A stretch of DNA of 61,819 bases from positions 1 through 61,819 of the forward strand of contig JAHFED010000037.1 of NCBI GenBank assembly GCA_023248635.1, given 5' to 3'. The notes beneath the pieces are model-generated. The model ran no database searches and had not been told where the DNA came from. It saw only the letters and a program-made list of their open reading frames with translations. Position numbers and translations under genes: made by a program. This DNA comes from Myxococcales bacterium. GTDB lineage: Bacteria > Myxococcota > UBA727 > VGSZ01. Positions 29,249 to 46,170 of the stretch are shown here, piece after piece (within the stretch, counting starts at the first letter, position 1; each line of letters opens with the position of its first letter).

Positions 29249-29387
29249 GGTGTCAGTCGGCGCCAGATCGCCCCGCGTCACCGGACACACAGCAAAACGC
29301 CTCAGGACGATCCACCGTGAGAGCGAACACGAGAGCAGTCAAGGGCTGCTGGTTCAAGGCGCTGGGGCCAACCAGAGATCCCCGCGG

Positions 29388-29580
29388 GAATTCACCGACA
29401 GCGCTTCGCGTGTCGGTGAATTGTCTGCAGGTTCATCGCCTGGCGGCGATGAATTCACCGACAGCGCTTCGCGTGTCGGTGAATTGTCTGCAGGTTCATC
29501 GCCTGGCGGCGATGAATTCACCGACAGCGCTGCGCTGTCGGTGAATTGTCTACAGGTTCATCGCCTGGCGGCGATGAATT
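29388..29580. repeat. Family B palindromic repeat, three tandem ~63-bp units
   Basis: Units start at gaattc 29388, 29451 and 29514. Each has a 12-bp perfect stem aattcaccgaca/tgtcggtgaatt around gcgcttcgcg, followed by a second short palindrome atcgcctggcggcgat. The period is 63 bp, or 21 codons (the last unit 62), and the plus strand stays open through the first two units, reading EFTDSASRVGELSAGSSPGGD. The block ends about 35 bp before the lytic transglycosylase start. Related copies lie at 45413-45570 and 45835-45964. Confidence 0.95.
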
Positions 29581-44328: not shown

Positions 44329-44693
44329 GCACCACCCGCACGATCACCAAGGCTGACCTCGTCGAGTCCGTCCACACCAAGGTGGGGTTTTCCAAGAAGG
44401 AATCCTCCGAGGTCGTCGAGCGGGTCTTCGAGACCATGAAGTCCACCCTCGAAAGCGGCGACGGGCTGAAGATCTCCGGCTTTGGCAAGTTCGACGTCCG
44501 CCGCAAAAACGCGCGGCGCGGGCGCAACCCCAAGACCGAGCAGGGCCTGATCATCCCTGAGCGCACCGTCGTCACCTTCAAGGCGAGCCAGGTCTTGAAG
44601 GCCGCCGTCGCTGGTGACGCGACCACCGCCGATGCGCCAGATGACGGCGACGCCAACGGCGCCACGAACATCCGGGGCACTGGCACCGGATGA
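44325..44693 (+). CDS. ihfA: Integration host factor alpha subunit
   Basis: 122 residues of the HU/IHF fold: ITKADLVESVHTKVGFSKKE, LESGDGLKISGFGKFDVR and the DNA arm ARRGRNPKTEQGLIIPERTV, with VVTFKASQVLK closing the core. A 30-residue acidic and Gly/Thr tail follows the normal end, which is unusual for IHF. It sits between the membrane-protein gene and the MerR gene with ATGA overlaps on both sides. The pheT-side location supports ihfA over hup. Confidence 0.93.
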   Translation: MSTTRTITKADLVESVHTKVGFSKKESSEVVERVFETMKSTLESGDGLKISGFGKFDVRRKNARRGRNPKTEQGLIIPERTVVTFKASQVLKAAVAGDATTADAPDDGDANGATNIRGTGTG

Positions 44694-45685
44694 GCGAAGA
44701 GATCACCAAGGCCAAGGGCCAACGCACCGCCGTCGTCGACGTCAGCCTTCCGCCTGCCAACGCACGGGGGCAGCGATCCGGGCTTCCTTCGGCTCTGCCC
44801 ACGCCCGGCGGCAGTCGGCTCTCCATCGTCTTGCCCGAGCGCAAGTACTTCAAGATCGGCGAAGTCGCTGAGCTCGTCGGCGTCGAACCGCATGTGCTCC
44901 GTTATTGGGAGACCCAGTTTTCCCAGCTGCGACCCCACAAGGCGCGCAGCGGCCACCGCCTCTACCGTCGACGCGAAGTCGAGACCCTCCTCGTCATCAA
45001 AGACCTGCTGCACATCCAGCGCTTCACCATCGCTGGGGCTCGGCAGGCGCTGCGCCAACAGGGAACGACGTCGTTGTTGCCCTCTCTCTTGCCTTCGCTG
45101 GTGCCCTCGCCGGCGGACAGCGTCCTTCCCCAACTGCGCGCGACGCCGGCGTTGAGCGCTCAAGCTTCACCCGCCGCCGCCCGTCCCAGTGGCGAGCGGG
45201 TTCCACCGCTGCAGCCGACCGTCGCCGACGACGCCCAGGACGATGACGAGCTCGAGTTCCATCTGGCCGACCCGCTGCAACGACGGGACGAGATCGAGCT
45301 CGACATCGAGGCCCGCGACGGCGACGACCTGGACGAAGCCCTCTCGGAGCAGCTCAGCACCCAGCTGGCCGGGCGACGTGTCAGCCGCGTCGACGTCATC
45401 GCCGGCAGCCCTGAATTCACCGACAGCGCTTCGCGTGTCCGTGAATTCACCGACAGCGCTTCGCGTGTCCGTGAATTGTCTCCAGGTTCATCGCCTGGCG
45501 GCGATGAATTCTCTGCCCTCCGGCCGGGCGGCCAATTGTCTAAGGGTGCATCGCCTGGCGGCGATGAGTTGCTACGCAGCTCCATCTCTCGCTCCGGGCT
45601 GCGAGCGCGAGAACCGGTGCGCGCCCTGCTTCAAGAAGCCGTCCGCGAGCTCGAGGCGGTGGTCTTCAAGCTCAAGCGGTCGTGA
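44690..45685 (+). CDS. MerR-family regulator with repeat-derived insertion
   Basis: 331 residues. A Pro-rich N-terminal ~50 residues precede a MerR helix-turn-helix: YFKIGEVAELVGVEPHVLRYWETQF, RLYRRREVETLLVI. This is the regulator normally found after ihfA. The middle is acidic, and residues about 242-294 are translated family B repeat (EFTDSASRVREFTDSASRV, SPGSSPGGDE). The reading frame continues to a C-terminal helix, PVRALLQEAVRELEAVVFKL, that is typical of the family end. The insertion thus added about 53 residues without breaking the gene. Ligand unknown. Confidence 0.9.
   Translation: MSEEITKAKGQRTAVVDVSLPPANARGQRSGLPSALPTPGGSRLSIVLPERKYFKIGEVAELVGVEPHVLRYWETQFSQLRPHKARSGHRLYRRREVETLLVIKDLLHIQRFTIAGARQALRQQGTTSLLPSLLPSLVPSPADSVLPQLRATPALSAQASPAAARPSGERVPPLQPTVADDAQDDDELEFHLADPLQRRDEIELDIEARDGDDLDEALSEQLSTQLAGRRVSRVDVIAGSPEFTDSASRVREFTDSASRVRELSPGSSPGGDEFSALRPGGQLSKGASPGGDELLRSSISRSGLRAREPVRALLQEAVRELEAVVFKLKRS
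45413..45570. repeat. Family B repeat inserted in frame within the MerR gene
   Basis: 158 bp of gaattcaccgacagcgcttc-type units: two short head units, one full unit, and a diverged unit with ggccaattgtctaagg then atcgcctggcggcgat. Same orientation as the 29388 block. No stop codon in the frame used by the gene. Confidence 0.95.
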
Positions 45686-45689
45686 GTGG

Positions 45690-46170
45690 ATGAAGCCTCT
45701 TTTTTGCGCGATCCTGTTGTGTCTTGGCGGGGCGATTTCCTGCTCGCACAATGAACCAAGCGATCCCCCCATCACCGCACGGCCAACGATCGAGATCCAG
45801 TTGCTGCAGGGAGCATGGGCGCCGGGCCCGACGAGAATTCATCGCCGCCAGGCGATGAACCTGGAGACAATTCACCGACACGCGAAGCGCTGTCGGTGAA
45901 TTCATCGCCGCCAGGCGATGGACGTGTAGACAATTCACCGACACGCAACGCGTGTCGGTGAATTTCGTCTACGCCTTCTCCGGCGACGAAGCCCTGCTCG
46001 AGGGGCGCGATGCCCGCTACCGCGGGAGCGTCGACGACGATCTCCTCATCATTCGCGACGGTGACGGCCGAGAGGAGCTGCGGACGATCATTGTGAGCCT
46101 GACGACGACGGCGCTGACGCTGCGCGATCCCTCGAGCGGTCACACGGCGGTGTTCATCCACCCGAACTGA
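45690..46170 (+). pseudogene. Lipocalin-like lipoprotein gene split by a family B repeat
   Basis: The 5' part encodes a lipobox signal (CLGGAISC) and EIQLLQGAW, the typical opening of lipocalin-like domains. Translation from the ATG meets a stop at 45897 inside the repeat. The rest of the domain (VYAFSGDEALLEGRD, DLLIIRDGDG, TTALTLRDPSSGHT) lies in another frame from 45965 to 46170. Taking out 45835-45964 (130 bp) joins the parts into one 116-residue frame. The 3' piece can still be opened from GTG 45952, but would lack a signal. So either broken or making fragments. Confidence 0.85.
45835..45964. repeat. Family B repeat, inverted copy inside the lipocalin-like gene
   Basis: Two units (63 and 62 bp) plus a flanking gaatt, in the opposite orientation to the 29388 and 45413 copies. 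Each begins gaattcatcgccgccaggcg and holds the caattcaccgacacg...tgtcggtgaatt stem. 130 bp shifts the frame by one, unlike the MerR copy. Confidence 0.93.

Follow-up and report, generated by a model that had tools for sequence, protein, structure and literature searches.

A palindromic array of a genome-wide, AATT-joined repeat family probably disrupts a lipoprotein-like gene in a myxobacterial genome

The locus and its palindromic array

The window analyzed here is a 61,819-nucleotide stretch of DNA (contig JAHFED010000037.1, assembly GCA_023248635.1) from a Myxococcales bacterium, and it carries on its plus strand a MerR-family gene (44690..45685). An ATG-initiated open reading frame with a plausible lipoprotein signal (MKPLFCAILLCLGGAISC...LLQGAWAPGPTR; 45690..45835, plus strand) begins 4 bp downstream of the MerR stop, and a second frame on the same strand (VYAFSGDEALLEGRDARYRG...VFIHPN; 45965..46170) is called as a gene. 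As originally described, a palindromic repeat stands between these two pieces, one running from 45690 and the other to 46170, and their frames differ. The coding signal is clear for the second half (+0.229 versus −0.014 for the next frame) and ambiguous for the first (−0.097 versus −0.099).

The repeat is an array with the structure AATT-B-AATT-A-AATT-B-AATT-A'-AATT (45836..45964, minus-strand orientation of the family), in which four palindromic modules are separated and bounded by AATT at every joint and both edges. From left to right it comprises a boundary AATT (45836..45839, unstranded), a probable target copy under a rule derived from excision of a hydrolase array discussed below; a 29-bp module B with the hairpin CATCGCC..GGCGATG (45840..45868, minus strand); a 26-bp module A with the palindrome CACCGACA..TGTCGGTG (45873..45898, minus strand); a second B with the variant linker GGACGTGTAGAC (45903..45931, minus strand); a 25-bp subtype, A' (45936..45960, minus strand); and the right boundary AATT (45961..45964, unstranded). 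The array measures 125 bp from AATT to AATT and 129 bp with both AATTs; the shorter A', a subtype also present in other arrays, makes it 125 bp rather than an in-frame 126 bp. Its reality as a repeat, claimed in the original prediction for 45835-45964, is upheld: its halves nearly duplicate each other at a spacing of 63 bp, each being built from inverted repeats, and copies occur throughout the genome. As single-stranded DNA, 45836-45964 folds at −54.7 kcal/mol versus −21.5 for shuffles (z = −12.2), and since this is far more stable than the shuffles the array is not chance sequence. Rfam matches to it were limited to miRNA models far below threshold.

A family dispersed across the genome

The array is one copy of a genome-wide family and no isolated insertion. 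The genome, a metagenome-assembled genome (MAG) of 6.53 Mb in 135 contigs and about 97% complete, holds 138 matches to the 130-bp query, the nearest of which (G000:C92:93410-93539) shows 97% identity across 130 bp and likewise measures 125 bp from AATT to AATT. Four contigs taken whole (C9, C78, C92 and C60; 840 kb) contain 18 arrays; as all four were already known to carry copies, the genome-wide extrapolation of ~140 arrays is an upper guess, and the largest contig, C9, alone extrapolates to about 65. Within the window a third array, A-B-A-B-A-B, lies outside called genes (29385..29580, plus strand). The same four contigs also bear further high-copy palindromic families, TTCAAGACGCTGGCGCGTCTTGAA with 66 modules and CTTTGAGCCGTGCCAACGGCTCAAAG with 35 modules in the 840 kb, along with 105- and 181-bp composite repeats.

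Beyond this genome the family is sparse. Among 58 relatives, matches to the repeat were found only in the same-genus genome G001, and when GTDB species representatives were scanned by pattern the family turned up a single time, in the myxobacterial MAG CAJBHN01, on a 3,900-bp contig corresponding to G001:C338. The two G001 copies are divergent and each consists of exactly one A and one B; in one pair of the B stem both partners differ, a compensatory change (CATCGCC..GGCGATG to CATCGGC..GCCGATG) that keeps the hairpin. Modules also differ less within arrays than between them (0.64 versus 1.31 for A, 1.12 versus 1.83 for B), none of 2000 permutations reaching the observed likeness for either module. 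Together, the one-A, one-B copies of G001 and the within-array likeness suggest that A-B, as AATT-A-AATT-B-AATT, is the elementary unit and that arrays are local expansions of it. Arrays can also include a further module, C (27 bp counting its AATT), as in the MerR gene, and the outer end tetramers of arrays vary (AAAT, AACT, AGTT). In both species the last B module often ends in GATGAAAT(G), not GATGAATT (L031:4303, L032:7867, L034:14075, L011:1570).

Empty sites and the AATT boundary

Arrays that interrupt conserved genes allow their boundaries to be compared with unoccupied sites. An array in an alpha/beta hydrolase gene is absent from G001, G002, G003 and G005, and a 126-bp array in lipB is absent from the sister species. 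When the hydrolase array is cut from AATT to AATT (222 bp) with one AATT kept, the product aligns without gaps with four relatives: it reads VVRGGRSDRWSDGELRRLHEAVGAGV against FVRGGRSDRWSADEQERLRAAVADGV, and the resulting SDRWSDGELRRL equals SDRWSADEQERL of G002 in length. Insertion would thus behave as if AATT were duplicated, a reading drawn from length because AATT is not seen at the relatives' empty sites, where the hydrolase position reads GAGCAG and that of lipB CCATTTC or CCACTTC. Protein identity to the relatives is roughly 45-75% in the compared genes, which puts base-level empty sites out of reach. LipB retains ~20 residues more than its relatives after excision of the array (SIAALAFGPQAASSGLRARS, L033:16536-16985), which are probably a second palindromic insert.

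At the level of the family, the idea that a short palindromic repeat acts as an insertion is therefore well supported by the empty lipB and hydrolase sites of the sister species. The target duplication proposed for this locus, gaatt, survives in substance as AATT, given the gapless hydrolase alignment with one AATT kept, and fails at its edge: the boundary common to both ends is AATT, the left g being flank and the right g the one with which the A hairpin ends (GGTG|AATT).

Arrays inside genes

Gene calls came from a Markov-model caller built for this analysis, used in place of a codon-only coding score that was too weak; it called 90% of the sequence as genes. Leaving aside arrays near contig ends, 61 could be placed: 42 fall between genes, 9 straddle the end of a gene and 10 sit wholly within genes, all of these ten translating through in frame. 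Pfam domains were confirmed for five of their hosts, namely lipB, the alpha/beta hydrolase, an SLT transglycosylase, a histidine kinase and the MerR-family gene of the window, while the other names given, two serine/threonine kinases, a phospholipase-D-like protein and a pseudouridine synthase, come from a reading of the sequences. The encoded peptide, whole or in part, is FTDSASRVGELS(T/P)GSSPGGDE in eight of the ten and NSSPPGDE.VDNSPTREALSVN in the other two. Modules, usually 30, 33 and 27 bp long including one AATT, are open in at least two frames and encode hydrophilic, flexible peptides (FTDSASRVGELSTGSSPGGDE; NSPTREALSVNSSPPGDEPVD). The AATT-to-AATT length is a multiple of three in 8/8 in-gene arrays with measurable ends versus 30/49 outside, a contrast that is partly circular, since the "inside" class itself requires an open frame.

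The MerR gene is one of these ten and adjoins the locus: its A-A-B-C-B array (45414..45570, plus strand) runs in frame for 153 bp from AATT to AGTT, i.e., 51 codons, and the same-genus MerR protein lacks that stretch. An inversion between this array and the oppositely oriented one at 45836-45964 was considered and rejected, as the MerR tail runs the same way in the sister species.

A probably interrupted gene

The original prediction held that a 130-bp element lying between GACGA and TCGTC, with GAATT at both ends, had split a lipocalin-like gene that its exact removal would restore. Removing 130 bp does yield a continuous open frame of 116 residues that ends at the TGA at 46168-46170. Yet this excision takes both AATTs together with one flanking G, and so contradicts the target duplication proposed alongside it. 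Removal of 125 bp (AATT to AATT) or of 129 bp (both AATTs) does not restore the frame: the halves come into one frame only when the deleted length is 1 mod 3, and 129 is a multiple of three. Any one chosen length would restore the frame with a one-in-three chance. Moreover, removing both GAATTs at the other two sites takes 227 bp from the hydrolase and 131 bp from lipB, neither a multiple of three, whereas the frames of the relatives are intact. With its right-hand G belonging to module A and no homologue to vouch for the joined product, exact restoration by loss of a 130-bp element is very improbable.

Nor did the joined protein find any match in Pfam, NCBIfam or PDB, lipocalin families included, or any homologue in 58 relatives, 16 genomes of the class and 195 genomes of the phylum, which leaves both "lipocalin-like" and "restored" unproven, with no homologue in support of a single lipocalin-like domain. 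A weak class match (E = 0.023) was rejected for overlapping a gene-like ORF on the opposite strand. Four weak phylum matches were rejected as short, partial and in frames unlike those of real genes: three (L135-L137) fall in ORFs of non-coding-like base composition and the fourth (L134) was not reproduced. The single-sequence structure model of the second half is all-strand and of low confidence (pLDDT 59). At the corresponding G001 locus, IHF-MerR is present and no lipoprotein lies between MerR and the next gene. The proposed search of relatives agrees in part with the refutation set out in the original prediction: no intact 116-residue homologue was recovered, although relatives bearing this insertion were likewise not seen.

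The main rival to a disrupted gene is one that starts close to the array. This reading takes the array as intergenic, the first ORF as no functional gene and the second as a small gene starting in or near the array, at GTG 45952 or ATG 45815. It draws on the restriction of coding signal and gene call to the second half, on the location of most arrays outside genes and on the AATT-to-AATT excision, which joins the frame MGAGPDENFVYAFSG..., that of ATG 45815; it leaves unexplained the convincing lipoprotein signal of the first ORF, 4 bp after the MerR stop, and a second half that alone has no secretion signal. Overall it appears rather unlikely. Disruption of the lipoprotein gene by the array is probable, considering that translation in the lipoprotein frame (frame 0) meets a TGA within the A module, that A' makes the array 125 bp and that at least one more 1-nt change would separate the halves. 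Against disruption stand the absence of a homologue proving one gene and the lack of a clear coding signal in the first half.

Comparison with known palindromic elements

REP/BIME elements form mosaics of short hairpins that lie chiefly in intergenic DNA, some of them within ORFs (PMC3733652), and the present arrays, likewise mosaic, tandem and mostly intergenic, with GTAG in some B modules, could be taken as classical REP/BIME mobilized by a RAYT (Y1 tyrosine transposase). However, the genome, about 97% complete as it is, gave no Y1_Tnp matches; neither GTAG nor CGTC stands at either array end; variation within B is greatest in the CTAC/GTAG stretch; and AATT occupies the joints and ends. The single Y1_Tnp match in G001 has no A or B modules near it. 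A classical REP/BIME origin is accordingly improbable. That G001 match (G001:C19:1840-2079) is a Y1-transposase-like gene of the sister species that this genome lacks.

The closest kind is the Rickettsia palindromic element (RPE). RPEs and their Wolbachia counterparts are short palindromes found in frame in unrelated conserved genes, and also between genes, and they encode a conserved peptide (PMC10969869, PMC2229807); the present family is likewise interspersed in frame in unrelated conserved genes (lipB, hydrolase, kinases, MerR, SLT). The differences lie in construction: RPEs are single elements of 105-150 bp that end in CGTC (PMC3733652), whereas here AATT joins hairpin modules of 26-29 bp into variable tandem arrays, and the host is a high-GC myxobacterial MAG; the array ends are AATT or AATT-like and lack CGTC. 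PARCEL (palindromic amphipathic repeat coding elements), as described in PMC2996958, is also tandem palindromic DNA translated as repeats, but there the repeat is an amphipathic motif of 25 residues and its ORFs have no known function, as against the 10- and 11-residue hydrophilic units in recognizable conserved genes seen here. Bacterial MITEs (ERIC, RUP, YPAL) are non-autonomous and interspersed, with a duplication-like target and occasional in-frame fusion (PMC2229807); these features have counterparts here, of which non-autonomy and the target duplication are putative, but there is no terminal TA and no long single TIR pair, and no matching IS was found. The best reading is a protein-coding palindromic element similar to the RPEs of Rickettsia.

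Conclusions

On balance, the insert belongs, more plausibly than not, to a protein-coding palindromic family that is or once was mobile, and here most likely disrupts a lineage-specific lipoprotein gene. Telling against this reading, beside the points already raised against disruption, are the empty sites without AATT, the varied outer tetramers, the extra LipB residues left after excision and the failure to find a mobilizing enzyme. The A-B unit would insert at AATT, duplicating those four bases, and arrays may then expand and contract by tandem duplication. Such insertions and copy-number changes would often be tolerated inside proteins because of the usual module lengths, the openness of the modules in at least two frames and the hydrophilic, flexible peptides they encode. 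At 45690-46170 the array would most likely have entered a small orphan lipoprotein gene, with at least one further 1-nt change separating the halves. As to mobilization, no transposase was found among 10 genes between neighboring arrays, and PF13546 was absent. A more tentative, though conceivable, proposal is that these lineage-specific AATT-joined modules, multiples of three and open in two frames, serve as in-frame protein lengtheners that spread without a RAYT through an undescribed AATT-targeting mechanism.

Rickettsia and Wolbachia have supplied the best-known protein-coding palindromic elements, and the present family offers a high-copy case in a large myxobacterial genome. The AATT rule supplies testable insertion boundaries, whereas the target duplication of RPEs is given as unknown (PMC2229807). 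The occurrence of such elements in lipB and in a hydrolase domain, together with the empty sites of the sister species, would show that they arise independently.
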